NCBI RefSeq assembly: GCF_900111115.1
Contig: NZ_FOGD01000001.1
Span: 614,910-678,909, forward strand
Length of the DNA stretch: 64,000 nt
Direction of reading: 5' to 3'
Source of the DNA: Giesbergeria anulus
GTDB taxonomy: Bacteria > Pseudomonadota > Gammaproteobacteria > Burkholderiales > Burkholderiaceae_C
Shown here: one piece after another, positions 27,304 to 49,219 of the stretch
How the letters are laid out: each line of letters starts with the position of its first letter
How positions within the stretch are numbered: the stretch's first letter is position 1
The notes under the pieces: generated by a model
The model's input: only the letters and a program-made list of their open reading frames with translations
Told to the model about the DNA's origin: nothing
Databases searched by the model: none
Translations under genes and position numbers: made by a program

Positions 27304-27504
27304 GCGCAGTAGTCCGATCAAGTGGCCCAATGTACGCCACAAGGGAAACTCCTAGCAGGCGAGCAGGGGTTTTCAGTGGCACAATCTGGGGTGAACAGGC
27401 CCTTCCCAGCCACAGTCGCATCCGCCAATCGGTTCAGCCGTGTCGCGGAAGGTTTCTTAAACCAGCTAATGCTTTCTTCAGGAAAGCTGAGGTCAGCGGA
27501 AAAT

Positions 27505-42317: not shown

Positions 42318-43325
42318 ATGTTGTCCCGCTTTTGTAAAATGTTCTTGGCCACTGCGCTACTGCTGGGTTTGCTGGCCTGTAAAGATGCCAACGATCTGCA
42401 ACTGAGCAGCGTCACCACAGCACCAGTGCCCGTTGCACCCACCAAACCCGCGCCAGACGACAAGAAAAAAACCATCGCCTTGGTGATGAAAACCCTGACC
42501 AACCCCTTTTTCATTGCAATGGAACAAGGCGCACGCCGGGCTGAACGCCAACTGGGCGTGCAATTGCAAGTCAAAGTAGCAGCACAAGAGACTTCTATCG
42601 AGCAGCAAATCCAAATTGTCGATGACCTGATCAGCGCCAAGGTAGATGCCCTCGTCATTGCACCGGGCGACTCGCAACGTTTGGTGCCGGTGCTCAAAAG
42701 GGCCGCTGATGCTGGTATCAAGCTGGTCAATCTAGACAACCGCCTAGACCCCCAAACAGTAGCGCAAGCGGGGCTAGCTCCCATCCCATTTTTGAGTGTA
42801 GACAACGAAAAGGCTGCCTATGCAGCGGCGCAGTGGCTGGCCAAAGAGGCCCGCCCCGGCACCCAAGCCATCGTGCTAGAAGGCATTCGCAGCGCCGACA
42901 ACGCCCGCCAGCGCCAGCAAGGGGCCAAACGTGCTTTAGCCGACAACCCCGCAGTCCAACTGGTAGCCAGTGAGAGCGCACACTGGAAAATCGACGAGGG
43001 CTACAGCGTGACACGCGAGCTGCTCACCCGCCACCCCCGCGTACAACTGATTTATGCGGCCAACGACATGATGGCACTGGGCGCAATCCAATACCTGCAA
43101 GAAAAAGGGCTCGGCGATGTCAAGGTAGGCGGCTACGATGCCATTGACGATGCCGTGGCCGAGGTGCGCAAAGGCCGCCTGAGTGTCACCGTCGATCAGC
43201 AGGCCGCCGAGCAAGGCTTTCAGGGGATGATGCTGGCGCATCGCTTGCTGGCCGGAGACAAGGTGCCTTTGGTCACGCTGGTCGATGTGCAACTGGTCAC
43301 GGCCTCTACCTCTAGCCTACCTTAA
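42318..43325 (+). CDS. Periplasmic sugar-binding-type lipoprotein (PBP family I)
   Basis: A 335-aa lipoprotein with the lipobox LLAC, Cys21 as the lipidation site. After a Pro/Thr-rich linker, residues about 50-330 form a type I periplasmic binding fold like ribose/xylose receptors (KTLTNPFFIAMEQGARRAE, DALVIAPGDSQRLVP, LIYAANDMMALGAIQYL, GGYDAIDDAVAEVRKG). GGAG lies seven bases before the ATG. No ABC permease or ATPase gene is adjacent; only three bases separate its stop from the GTG of a histidine kinase gene. A receptor role presenting ligand to the kinase is more likely than transport. The ligand is unknown. Confidence 0.9.
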   Translation: MLSRFCKMFLATALLLGLLACKDANDLQLSSVTTAPVPVAPTKPAPDDKKKTIALVMKTLTNPFFIAMEQGARRAERQLGVQLQVKVAAQETSIEQQIQIVDDLISAKVDALVIAPGDSQRLVPVLKRAADAGIKLVNLDNRLDPQTVAQAGLAPIPFLSVDNEKAAYAAAQWLAKEARPGTQAIVLEGIRSADNARQRQQGAKRALADNPAVQLVASESAHWKIDEGYSVTRELLTRHPRVQLIYAANDMMALGAIQYLQEKGLGDVKVGGYDAIDDAVAEVRKGRLSVTVDQQAAEQGFQGMMLAHRLLAGDKVPLVTLVDVQLVTASTSSLP

Positions 43326-43328
43326 GCC

Positions 43329-45911
43329 GTGCGCTGGAACAACACCATCACCACCCGGTTGGTGGCGTATTTGCTGCTCACCGGCATTGTGCCCTTGCTG
43401 CTGTTTGGTGTGGGTGCCTTTTATGTAGCGCGTGGCATGGTGCTAGAGCAAACTACGGCCAACAACCAGCGCACCCTGCAAGAGGCGCAGCAGCTGCTCA
43501 CGCTCTACAGTGAGCAGCTAGAGGACTTGGCTAGCAACATCGCTGGCAATGAGGCCATCGCCCGTGCCCTCTACGAGCTAGACCGCGCCACTGAAGACAG
43601 CTATAGCCGCCTAAACACCCGCGCCCAAATTGGCTACATCCTGAACCATTTTTTGCGCACCAGAGGGCTGGTATCGCTGGATGTATTGTCCTTGCAAGGG
43701 CGGCATTTTCATGTGGGTGCAACGCTAGACGCCCAAGACGTACCCACAAACACCGTACGCCAGCTGGTGCAAGAGGCCCAAGCCTCAGGCCGGGGCACCT
43801 TCTGGCGCAGCATCGATGATGGTGCCAACCTTGGACTGGCCCCCAACAAGGTCTACACCCTGACCCACCCCATCAGCCATTACGATGAAAAAGCCGGGGT
43901 ACATTCTGTAGTCGGTGTGCTGGTCATCAGCATCAACGATGCAATTTTTCAAAAACACCACGAACTAGACGCCTCTGGTTATGGGCTGGCACGGCTGATG
44001 GTGACGGATCGCAGCGGCCATTTTGTCCATCACCCCGACCAACGCTATTTTGGCCAGCCCGTGGCCCCCGCCTTGGTGCGCTTGCTGCAACAAGGCAAAC
44101 CCGACCGAAGCTTGATGCTCGATGGGCAGCAAGTCTGGTTCTCTGCCGTACCCTTGGCCAAAATGGGGGGTTATTTGGTGCTCACCTCGCCCTTAGCGCA
44201 GCAAACAACGCAAGTGTTACGCTTGGCCTTGCTGGCGCTGGCCTTGCTGCTGGTTTGCTTGGCCGTGATGGCAGTTTTGGTACACCGCCACGCCCGGCAG
44301 GTGGTAGCACCGCTGCGCGCCGTGGCCCAACGCTTTCAGCGCCTGAGCCAAGCACCGCAAGCAGCCCATGCGCCCTTACCCATCCCCGCCGAACGCGATG
44401 AGATTACCGACTTGGTGACAGGCTTTAATGCCTACTTGCACACTGTGCAGCAGCAGCAACATGCCACCGAAGTCTTGCGCTGTACCCAGCAAGAACTGCT
44501 AGAGCAGGCCCAGACCCTACGCACCGCTATTGAGGCCATCGACGAGGCTTTTGTGCTGTTCGATGAAAACGACCGCCTGGTGTTTTGCAATGAGAAGTAC
44601 CGCACCCTCATTCCGGCCCATGATCTGCTGGACTTGCACGGCAAAACGTTTGAAGAACTGCTGCGCATCCGTATCCGGGCGGGCAACTATGCCAACCTCA
44701 CTCAGGCCTCGCTGCCAGAGCAAGATGCTTGGGTACAGCAGCGCATGCTCATCCACCGCGACGGCCAACAGACGACAGAGCAAAAACTGCACGATGGGCG
44801 CTGGCTGCGCATTGTCGATCGTAAAACGCCTACGGGTTACACGGTGGGCTTTCGGGTAGACATCACACGCCTCAAGCAGATGCAAGAGGCTGCCGAAGCC
44901 GCCAACCGCGCCAAGAGCGATTTTTTGGCCAACATGAGCCACGAAATCCGCACCCCCATGAACGCCATCATCGGCATGACCGCTTTGGTGCTTGACTCCC
45001 CCCTGACACCACGCCAGCGCGACTACCTAGGCAAGGCCCACACCTCGGCCAAGGCGCTGTTGCAATTGCTCAATGACATTCTGGACTACTCCAAAATTGA
45101 GGCGGGCCGCATGGAGCTGGAACAAGAACCTTTTGAGCTGGCAGCCCTAGTGCAACAGGTACACGACCTGTTTGCGCACCAACTAGAGGCCAAGCAACTG
45201 CAATGGCAGCAGGATATTGATCCGCATTTGCCCCGCTATCTGGTGGGCGATGCCCTGCGCTTGGGCCAGATTTTGAGCAATCTGGTCAGCAACGCTATCA
45301 AGTTTACCCCGCACGGAGGGGTGCAGTTGTCCTTTTCATGGCAGGCAGAAACAGCCCATACCATCACCCTGCAAGGCAAGGTATCCGATACCGGCATCGG
45401 CATGACACCTGAGCAGGTGCAGCGGCTGTTTGCGGCCTTTACCCAAGCCGATAGCTCCATCACACGCAAATATGGCGGCACGGGGCTAGGGCTCTCTATC
45501 GTGCGGCAACTGACCCACCTCATGGGTGGCAGCGTACAAGTGCAAAGCACAGCAGGCCAAGGCAGCATGTTCTGTTTTCAGGTCACGCTGGCGCGCGCCA
45601 GCGAAGAGCTGGCACCCGCCAAAGCAACTACGCCTGAAGAGACAACCCCGTTGGAATTTTGCCCAGCTACGGCGACCTGTATCAACTACCTCCAACTGCA
45701 CCAACTGCTGGCCGAGCTCGAACCCCTGCTACAAGCCAACCGATTGGCAGCCAAACGCACCAGCGAAGAGATCGAGCTATTGCTGCAAGGCAGTGCGCTG
45801 GCTAGCGCTTTTGCGCCAGTGAGCATCGCTGTGCGCCGCCTGCAATTTAAGCCAGCGCTCGAAGCACTGCTCACCTTTGCCTCCACCCTGCCCGCCAGCA
45901 CGGCACAATAA
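43329..45911 (+). CDS. dCache-HAMP-PAS histidine kinase
   Basis: An 860-aa inner-membrane sensor kinase, GTG start. TM1 about 12-34, a periplasmic double-Cache-like domain about 40-290, TM2 about 296-318, HAMP about 319-375, PAS about 395-515, HisKA with the phosphorylated His538 ([19 protein letters not shown]), and HATPase with Asn655, DTGIGM (Asp687) and GTGLGLS. The last ~100 residues resemble the segment that follows a receiver in hybrid kinases, but no receiver is present; one is supplied by the next gene. It starts three bases after the lipoprotein stop. Confidence 0.93.
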
Positions 45912-45934
45912 ACACAAAAGAAAGAGACTGTTTC

Positions 45935-47275
45935 ATGCTGCCCCCACGCCCCCAAGTCTTGATCGTGGACGACCAACCAGAAAACATCGAAGTTCTGGGT
46001 GAAACGCTGGCCGACATCTGCGACATCGGTTTTGCCCTGTCTGGGCAAGAAGGGCTGGCCCAAGTAGATGAGGACTTGCCTGACCTGATTTTGCTCGATG
46101 TGATGATGCCCGACATGAACGGCTACGAAGTGCTAGCGCACTTGCGCAGCAACCCGCGCACACGCGATGTACCGGTGATTTTTGTAACTGCCCGCATCGA
46201 TCCAGACAGCGAAACACAGGGCATCGAGGCGGGGGCCGTAGACTTTATCCACAAGCCCATCAACCCACAGGTGGTCAAAACACGGGTATCGGCACACCTA
46301 GAAAGAGCACAACAACGCGCCGCGCTGGCCCAGCTCAACCGCCAGCTAGAGCAATCGCTGGCCGATATCAAAGCCGCACAAAACAAGCTGCAAGTACTCT
46401 CTACCGCCATTGAGCAATCGCCCTTGACAGTGATGGTCACTGACACCCAAGGCCGCATTGAATACGTTAATCCTTACTTTACCCAACTGACCGGCTACTC
46501 TTTTGATGAGGTGTGCGGACAACGGCCATCCATGCTCAAATCAGGCCTGACCGACCAATTGGTGTTTAGCGAGTTGTGGACGGAGCTCAACCACGGGAAC
46601 CGCTGGATGGGGGAAATTATCAACTGCACCAAGCATGGCCAAACCTATGTCGAAGAGACACACATTGCCCCAGTCATTGATGCCGAAGGCCGACACAGCC
46701 ACTATGTCGCCATCAAGCTCGACATCACAGAGCGCAAGCACTCACAAGAAAAACTCGACCATCTCGCCCATTACGACATCCTGACCAATTTGCCCAACCG
46801 CAGCCTGTTTATGGATCGCGTTGAGCGCGGGCTGGCGCTGGCTAAACGCCACGCCTCGCTGCTGGCGCTGCTGTTTATTGACCTAGACAAGTTCAAGCCC
46901 ATCAACGACATCTGGGGCCACGCCATTGGCGACTTGGTATTGCAAGAGGTAGCGCAGCGTATGCAATCTTGCGTGCGCGAGTCCGACACTGTGAGCAGGG
47001 TCGGGGGTGACGAGTTTGTGGTGCTGCTGCTCAACCTCAGCAGCCCCACCGACGCCTTGCAGGTGGCCGAAAAAATACGCTTGGCCCTCAATGAACCGAT
47101 GCAGCTCGATGGCAAAGTGCTGTCGGTGTCTTCCTGCATTGGCGTGGCACTGTACCCAGAACACGGCCAAACGCAAACCGAGCTGTCGCGCCATGCCGAT
47201 GCCGCCATGTACCAAGCCAAAGAGCGGGGCCGCAACCAAGTGGTGCTGTTTGAACCCATGATGGCCGGGGCCTAA
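45935..47275 (+). CDS. Response regulator diguanylate cyclase (REC-PAS-GGDEF)
   Basis: A 446-aa cytoplasmic protein. The receiver (1-120) has the acidic pair DD (12-13), phospho-acceptor Asp55 (LILLDVMMPDMNG) and Lys107. A coiled coil leads to a PAS domain (about 155-265) and GGDEF (about 275-440). The active site is intact (GGDEF 357-361), and the product-inhibition site RESD (348-351) is correctly placed (RESDTVSRVGGDEF). It should make c-di-GMP when phosphorylated by the upstream kinase. It lies 23 bases after the kinase gene. Confidence 0.95.
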   Translation: MLPPRPQVLIVDDQPENIEVLGETLADICDIGFALSGQEGLAQVDEDLPDLILLDVMMPDMNGYEVLAHLRSNPRTRDVPVIFVTARIDPDSETQGIEAGAVDFIHKPINPQVVKTRVSAHLERAQQRAALAQLNRQLEQSLADIKAAQNKLQVLSTAIEQSPLTVMVTDTQGRIEYVNPYFTQLTGYSFDEVCGQRPSMLKSGLTDQLVFSELWTELNHGNRWMGEIINCTKHGQTYVEETHIAPVIDAEGRHSHYVAIKLDITERKHSQEKLDHLAHYDILTNLPNRSLFMDRVERGLALAKRHASLLALLFIDLDKFKPINDIWGHAIGDLVLQEVAQRMQSCVRESDTVSRVGGDEFVVLLLNLSSPTDALQVAEKIRLALNEPMQLDGKVLSVSSCIGVALYPEHGQTQTELSRHADAAMYQAKERGRNQVVLFEPMMAGA

Positions 47276-48020: not shown

Positions 48021-48596
48021 ATGAAAATCATTTCTTTATTCTCTACTTTGGTGCTTGGCAGTGCCAGCCTGCTCATGGCCGCCCCAGCCAGCGCACAGCA
48101 AGCCTTGGTGCCAGCACAAAGCAACATCAGTTTTACTGCCAAGCAAATGGGCGTGCCGCTGCAAGGGCATTTCAAGAAATTCACTGCCCAAGTAGCTTTT
48201 GATGCCACCAAGTTGGCTACGAGCAAAATCAGCTTTAGCGTCGATACCGGCAGCGCCACGCTGGGCTCGAAAGAAACCGATGCCGAGCTGCCAAAAGCGG
48301 TGTGGTTTAACGTGCCCCAGTTTCCGCAAGCCACGTTTGAATCCAGCAGCATCAAGGCACTGGGTGGTGGCAAATTTGATGTGGCAGGCAAGCTGACCAT
48401 CAAAGGCCAAGCCCGTGATGTGACCGTGCCTGTGGCCCTGAGCCAAAACGGTGGCACCACCACCGCCACCGGCACACTGGCCCTCAAGCGTTTAGCCTAC
48501 AAGATTGGTGAGAACGAATGGGCCGACACCTCGATGGTGGCCGACGATGTGCAAGTGCAATTCAAGCTCGCACTGACCGGCGTGGGCAAGCTGTAA
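48021..48596 (+). CDS. YceI family periplasmic protein (first copy)
   Basis: A 191-aa exported lipocalin-like barrel that probably binds an isoprenoid or amphiphilic ligand. The signal peptide ends after ASA near residue 25 (cleavage before QQALVP). The domain shows SNISFTAKQMGVPLQGHF and later KLTIKGQARDVTVPV, the YceI core. It lies about 50 bases after cytochrome b561 and 47 before a second copy. The two proteins are clearly divergent, so this is not a recent duplication. Confidence 0.9.
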   Translation: MKIISLFSTLVLGSASLLMAAPASAQQALVPAQSNISFTAKQMGVPLQGHFKKFTAQVAFDATKLATSKISFSVDTGSATLGSKETDAELPKAVWFNVPQFPQATFESSSIKALGGGKFDVAGKLTIKGQARDVTVPVALSQNGGTTTATGTLALKRLAYKIGENEWADTSMVADDVQVQFKLALTGVGKL

Positions 48597-48643
48597 TTTT
48601 TCTTTTCCCCCGATTTTTTCAACGTTTTTTCAGGAGTTTTTTC

Positions 48644-49219
48644 ATGCGTAAATCCCTCTTCTCCTTGGCCGCTATCGCTACTTTGGCCGCCAGCGCCGTG
48701 CAAGCTGCCCCCGCTGCCTACGCCATTGACCCCACGCACACCTTTGCCACCTTCGAGATCAGCCACTTTGGTGCTACCGTGAACCGGGGCCGCTTTGACA
48801 AAAAAGAAGGCACTGTGCAATTTGACAAAGCCGGTAAGAGCGGCAAGGTAGATATCAGCTTTGATATTGCCTCGGTCAACACCGGCACCGCCGCTTTTGA
48901 CAAGCACCTGCAAAGCGCCGACATTTTTGACGCAGCCAAGCACCCCACGGCCCAATTTGTCTCTGACAAGTTCCACTTTAACGGCGACAAGGTCACTTCC
49001 GTGGATGGCAAACTAACCCTGCTGGGCAAAACCCAGCCCATCACCCTCAAGGCCAACCAGTTTGCCTGCTATGACAGCCCGATGCTCAAGCGCGAAGTGT
49101 GCGGCGGCGACTTTGAAGCCACCATCGACCGCACGGCTTTTGGCCTGAACTACGGCGTTGATTGGGGCTTCCCGAAGAACGTGCGCTTGGTCGTGCAGAT
49201 TGAAGCGGTCAAGCAATAA
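48644..49219 (+). CDS. YceI family periplasmic protein (second copy)
   Basis: A 191-aa YceI protein starting at the ATG at 48644, with CAGGAG eight bases upstream; the open frame from 48518 overlaps the first copy and is rejected. The signal peptide ends near residue 21 (VQA/AP). The mature part begins YAIDPTHTFATFEISHFG, then GTVQFDKAGKSGKV and KLTLLGKTQPITLKA, and ends in the conserved Asp-Arg-Thr-Ala-Phe-Gly-Leu region. A GCGCC-stem terminator follows. Confidence 0.92.
   Translation: MRKSLFSLAAIATLAASAVQAAPAAYAIDPTHTFATFEISHFGATVNRGRFDKKEGTVQFDKAGKSGKVDISFDIASVNTGTAAFDKHLQSADIFDAAKHPTAQFVSDKFHFNGDKVTSVDGKLTLLGKTQPITLKANQFACYDSPMLKREVCGGDFEATIDRTAFGLNYGVDWGFPKNVRLVVQIEAVKQ

Follow-up and report, generated by a model that had tools for sequence, protein, structure and literature searches.

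A candidate co-receptor operon of a sugar-type binding lipoprotein, a dCache kinase and a diguanylate cyclase in Giesbergeria anulus

The window analyzed here is a 64,000-nucleotide stretch of Giesbergeria anulus DNA (contig NZ_FOGD01000001.1, positions 614,910 to 678,909) containing a three-gene operon that encodes a substrate-binding lipoprotein (SBP), a sensor histidine kinase, and a response regulator diguanylate cyclase. We consider it probable (about 0.72) that this operon is a dedicated SBP co-receptor signaling unit controlling cyclic di-GMP (c-di-GMP), the SBP having left transport. The membrane-anchored, ribose/allose-type lipoprotein would close on a small sugar-like ligand and, once loaded, dock on the periplasmic dCache domain of the adjacent kinase. 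Docking would alter kinase activity and the flow of phosphate from His538 to Asp55 of the REC-PAS-GGDEF protein, and this flow would set the rate of c-di-GMP synthesis by a domain that is GGDEF by sequence and presumably active. The features of the operon, in window coordinates, are as follows.

42318..43325, + strand: Peripla_BP_4 substrate-binding lipoprotein, 335 aa, lipoprotein Cys21; the proposed co-receptor
43329..45911, + strand: sensor histidine kinase with a GTG start, arranged as TM-dCache-TM-HAMP-like-PAS_7-HisKA(His538)-HATPase-tail, without a receiver
43425..44228, + strand: periplasmic dCache sensor domain of the kinase (modeled region)
45624..45911, + strand: C-terminal tail of the kinase
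45935..47275, + strand: response regulator diguanylate cyclase, REC(Asp55)-PAS-GGDEF, with an RxxD inhibitory-site motif

Association of the binding protein with a dCache sensor

SBP relatives were gathered from plasmids, genome contigs, and family, class and close-relative genomes. Twenty-five SBPs, including that of the window, form a clade in which each member scores at least 422 bits against the clade profile. A full-length sensor match was found in the gene directly adjoining the SBP in 24 of the 25, and none had an ATP-binding cassette (ABC)-like gene within 700 bases on the SBP strand. A further 39 SBPs scored 282 bits or less; 35 of these adjoined an ATPase motif or a permease-like open reading frame (ORF), four adjoined neither, and none had a window-type sensor beside it. 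The comparison of gene neighborhoods shows that the predicted SBPs of the clade adjoin a dCache sensor rather than ABC genes. An earlier reading of this DNA from its sequence only had taken the SBP for a signaling co-receptor rather than a transport protein and had proposed such a neighborhood survey; the result supports that view, and the possibility it had raised against itself, that homologous lipoproteins always pair with ABC sugar permeases, was not borne out.

The lone clade SBP without an adjacent sensor is L036; a different contig of its genome holds the gene of a full-length sensor (E 1.5e-129), so that SBP and sensor co-occur in all 25 records or genomes. The nearest relative of this unlinked sensor is the sensor of L035, whose SBP is in turn sister to that of L036. 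The SBP tree had 61 rows (L016, L017 and L104 were left out as short); in it the 25 clade members formed one group with support of 100/99, and a separate group of 25 rows, 24 of them ABC-linked, had the same support. Several long branches in the outgroup drew a warning from the tree program. The 25 members do not count as fully independent cases: L004 shares 96% identity with the window SBP, and L008 and L010 come from a single genus. L001 represents four Aeromonas records, of which two were examined. The counts omit L014 (split SBP frame, followed by a sensor), L132 and L133 (duplicates of L004 and L005), and L002 (arranged as L001).

The three ORFs, the lipobox LLAC with Cys21, and the gaps of 3 bases (SBP stop to kinase GTG) and 23 bases (kinase to cyclase) reported earlier were re-derived from the sequence, and flank scans agreed that hemY lies upstream, cytochrome b561 downstream, and no ABC gene beside the operon. 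In the Pfam scan, the SBP matched PF13407 (Peripla_BP_4) at 5.1e-59 and 200 bits against a cut-off of 35, with Peripla_BP_1 and Peripla_BP_3 as its only other families and no match of the NspS-like spermidine type. Of three Peripla_BP_4 matches in its genome, it alone exceeded the cut-off. Among the curated transporter models, it fell below the cut-offs for AlsB (167 of 335 bits) and RbsB (157 of 337 bits); PHROGs returned two weak families, neither informative.

The GTG start of the kinase agrees with the N-termini of its relatives, and Pfam identified PAS_7, HisKA (His538) and HATPase_c, with a HAMP-like stretch below the cut-off. The sensor region itself had no match in the Pfam scan; relatives of the sensor matched dCache_1, one of them above the cut-off. 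Structural comparison of the modeled window sensor gave a dCache-like result, with top matches that include dCache domains solved with bound ligands. As modeled, the receptor domain of the kinase has a dCache/tandem-PAS fold. The best match of the sensor sequence to PDB chains was no better than E 0.14, and the absence of LuxQ from the 50 structural matches listed carries no weight either way. In structure 5ere (Desulfohalobium, titled extracellular ligand binding receptor), residues 353-593 align to the window sensor, and this protein may be a natural fusion of both partners, a binding protein joined to a dCache domain. The cyclase contains the phospho-acceptor Asp55 in REC, a PAS domain, and, as reported earlier, intact GGDEF (357-361) and RxxD (RESD, 348-351) sites; with the Asp and the GGDEF signature in place, c-di-GMP synthesis is predicted.

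Exchangeable outputs and the kinase tail

The genes attached to the SBP-sensor pair differ among relatives. A separate kinase and REC-PAS-GGDEF gene accompany the pair in the window, L005 and L004 (the third gene of L004 is cut by the contig end), and a hybrid kinase followed by a REC...GGDEF-EAL gene in L033 and L034. Hybrid kinases occur in L006 (split over two frames), L011, L012, L013 and L035, and unlinked in L036; L009 has a plain kinase output. GGDEF-EAL within the sensor chain was confirmed by Pfam in eight relatives (L001, L007, L008, L037, L038, L039, L077 and L079), and the output of four others (L010, L078, L134 and L135) was called from a GGDEF match alone. L080, whose output gene runs off its contig, was not counted; for the 24 rows labeled, either tree requires a minimum of three switches between kinase and GGDEF-EAL. 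Comparison of the deduced proteins shows a constant SBP-sensor pair joined to an interchangeable cytoplasmic output. The layout that the sequence-only reading had regarded as unusual was described correctly for the window, but it is not a one-off; it belongs to a family with exchangeable outputs. The GGDEF-EAL proteins at L001:8923-12141 and L034:12578-16450 both end in a chemoreceptor zinc-binding (CZB) domain.

The kinase tail (~75 aa) had matches at E <=0.001 in 8 of 299 family genomes, including its own, some of them weak, and in all eight the next gene holds a REC domain. Pfam scans of the next-gene products in six others revealed REC-PAS-GGDEF (cut by the locus end), REC-PAS-GGDEF-EAL (two cases), REC-SpoIIE, REC-kinase and REC-HD. 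The earlier proposal that the tail is a post-receiver segment holds in part: a receiver precedes the tail in four of the seven other matches (L166, L170, L171 and L172), but L167 has an Hpt domain there, no receiver was seen in L169, and L168 is cut. The nearest tail relative (genome G038, L166) has its receiver between the ATPase and the tail, with the start of a REC-PAS-GGDEF gene downstream. Since several tail relatives carry a receiver before the tail, the kinase of the window may once have had an internal receiver that it then lost. The tail itself may mark kinases whose signaling partner is a neighboring REC protein, and is possibly a docking segment.

Ligand pocket, docking and competing explanations

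The pocket positions of the E. coli ribose-binding protein were mapped onto the clade by alignment, and 19 rows were scored. Two Phe, Asp, Arg, the second Asn, Asp and Gln were invariant, and the first Asn was present in 17 of 19. Ser9, Arg90 and Phe164 of the ribose protein are replaced in the clade by Lys (19/19), Asn (18/19) and Trp (19/19), of which the Lys and Trp presumably resemble the allose-binding protein. Because this ribose/allose-type pocket is nearly invariant, a sugar-like ligand common to the clade appears likely from the alignment. Of the 25 clade members, 24 have the lipoprotein Cys, against 1 of 26 relatives scoring 200-282 bits (five of the 26 are gapped there), and a linker of 19-32 residues follows it in the 18 lipoproteins listed; tethering to the membrane fits a resident co-receptor. 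Ten of 19 clade-specific SBP positions fall at 59-96, a stretch that is a possible contact face for the sensor.

Several points weigh against a co-receptor role. The residue at lipobox +2 of the window SBP is Lys, which under the E. coli sorting rule would direct the lipoprotein to the outer membrane. Folding of SBP and sensor as one chain gave a predicted template modeling score (pTM) of 0.49 with no confident docking (unpaired alignment of 3 SBP and 8 sensor relatives), and for this reason we claim no docked complex. In an even sample of the phylum, 23 of 398 genomes had an SBP match, and only the window's own genome reached clade scores; the clade is therefore rare. The score gap between the clade and other SBPs is partly built in, because 19 of the 25 members were used to make the profile, but the neighborhood labels are independent of it. 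The ABC labels were based on a Walker motif or hydrophobicity rather than family models. The L036 SBP has among its neighbors a FecCD permease accompanied by an ABC ATPase, as well as two TonB receptors. At L033 an ABC ATPase and two PF02653 permeases lie ~3 kb upstream, separated from the SBP by a GGDEF gene and an amidohydrolase gene. Finally, the main groups of the SBP tree recur in the sensor tree, and such agreement is expected from linkage alone.

The two-permease ABC set of L033 also bears on the idea that the window lipoprotein is an orphan transport SBP serving another ABC permease of its genome, its adjacency to the kinase merely co-regulating uptake. The pocket is of ribose/allose type, and the genome has 16 PF02653 permease matches. 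In seven permease regions that we viewed in that genome, however, any ATPase ORF that shows is of 237-303 aa or is part of a 621-aa ORF that also matches permease, and judged by eye alone the arrangement looks Liv-like (the pair at C7:98926-100652 was viewed without flanks). With no adjacent ABC-like genes in the clade and the SBPs beside CUT2-like genes grouping separately in the tree, we regard an orphan transport role as highly improbable. It is unlikely, if less strikingly so, that the sensor recognizes a small ligand by itself through its dCache domain, leaving the SBP an accessory part as a buffer, a scavenger or a second input. The ligand-bound dCache structures among the top matches speak for direct binding, and 16 of 20 invariant sensor columns are concentrated within positions 1-130 of 268, a pattern that a pocket would likewise produce; against it, SBP and sensor occur together even where they are unlinked, and the SBP is conserved more strongly than the sensor (median pairwise identity 51% against 31%, over 300 pairs).

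Alternatively, the kinase might phosphorylate another regulator, leaving the REC-PAS-GGDEF protein to answer to other kinases. Five relatives with a kinase output (L006, L009, L012, L013 and L035) do lack an adjacent REC-cyclase gene, but kinase and REC-cyclase are neighbors in the window, L004 and L005, a hybrid kinase takes that place in L033 and L034, and the REC gene that follows every tail match likewise argues for the proposed partnership. We consider a separate target very unlikely.

Known systems, distribution and other features of the window

The principle of SBP co-receptor signaling is already known, and this SBP-dCache family would be a further case of it. According to passages of PMC9602780 and PMC11113362, it is widespread for SBPs to activate kinases, chemoreceptors and c-di-GMP enzymes. 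One system close in plan is LuxP-LuxQ of Vibrio (autoinducer-2; LuxPQ papers are cited in PMC11113362). In that system, a periplasmic type-I binding protein with no known transport role acts as co-receptor for a kinase whose periplasmic domain is of the tandem-PAS/dCache type, and the output passes through LuxU-LuxO; in contrast, the window SBP is a ribose/allose-like lipoprotein, its kinase lacks a receiver, and the output is the adjacent REC-cyclase. The window kinase reached 242 bits against a LuxQ_Vibrio cut-off of 1200, over the kinase core only. TorT-TorS (trimethylamine N-oxide) is likewise an SBP and kinase pair, and the window proteins fell short of its equivalog models (SBP 43 bits against 200 for TorT; kinase 285 against 676 for TorS). 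XylFII-LytS, whose LytS-type kinase regulates transport genes, is not known to have a c-di-GMP output; the resemblance lies in a sugar-type SBP, for D-xylose, serving as co-receptor of a histidine kinase (a title cited in PMC9602780).

In NspS-MbaA (Vibrio and Sinorhizobium; polyamines), a periplasmic SBP is reported to control a c-di-GMP enzyme, and by gene content the GGDEF-EAL members of our clade follow the same plan. NspS is a spermidine-type SBP of another family, whereas the window SBP is Peripla_BP_4 and its output runs via a kinase. ArtI of Salmonella is a component of a transporter. For ArtI-STM1987 (L-arginine), PMC8846402 reports that a putative arginine-binding protein is needed for signaling by a dCache diguanylate cyclase; there the cyclase itself is the receptor. 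A census of c-di-GMP inputs in section 10 of that article states that, of PBP-clan domains in GGDEF, EAL or HD-GYP proteins, only SBP_bac_3 had been studied. Full-text searches of a collection of open-access papers showed no description of this SBP-dCache family, which is weak evidence of absence since subscription papers are mostly outside that coverage.

Close SBP relatives were detected in 8 of 399 family genomes and 5 of 369 class genomes, each including the window's own. The sensor profile matched 109 of the 398 phylum genomes; among the matches listed, only the window's own was full length, and the others covered mainly the membrane-proximal half. Within the genus, 5 of 26 genomes have a clade SBP: the cassette follows hemY in three (the window's own, G1135 and G1138), and G1147 and G1139 carry an SBP-sensor-GGDEF version on a contig other than that of hemY. 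None of 22 further hemY loci in the genus has the SBP within the ~1.5 kb read downstream, as far as each contig allows; hemY is followed there by cytochrome b561 in 16, a YceI-like gene in four, and neither in two (L112 and L115). On two Aeromonas plasmids (L001 and L002), the SBP and a sensor-PAS-GGDEF-EAL-CZB gene lie downstream of a tni transposition module and beside recombinase genes, and the pair may be transposon cargo.

NZ_AP026376.1, 476-13292: Aeromonas plasmid locus L001, with the tni module, the SBP and the sensor-GGDEF-EAL gene

The 25 pairs, with one kind of input and varied outputs, form a natural series on how a binding protein switches a dCache receptor, and they suggest that some genes resembling the SBPs of sugar ABC transporters encode signaling proteins. 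The operon itself points to a sugar-like signal controlling c-di-GMP. We put forward only tentatively, and with some doubt, a wider reading in which a portable co-receptor family of sugar-type lipoproteins left transport once, kept one dCache lineage and the same ligand in Pseudomonadota and Chloroflexota, acquired varied c-di-GMP and phosphorelay outputs, and spread as a cassette, transposon-bearing plasmids included; if so, the ligand would be no nutrient but an extracellular signal that these bacteria have in common.

The GC content of the three operon genes (0.565-0.582) is slightly below that of four flanking genes (0.593-0.640), and at third codon positions the ranges overlap (0.649-0.689 and 0.674-0.732); these differences are too small to argue for a foreign origin of the operon. 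The numbers of promoter-like sites (3 against 2.2) and terminator-like sites (7 against 6.9) were close to those expected by chance. The Rfam scan of the window found a single RNA, outside the operon: a SucA RNA motif (RF01070, 83.8 bits) at 27416-27498. Beyond cytochrome b561, two adjoining ORFs at 48021-49219 appear to be YceI-like.
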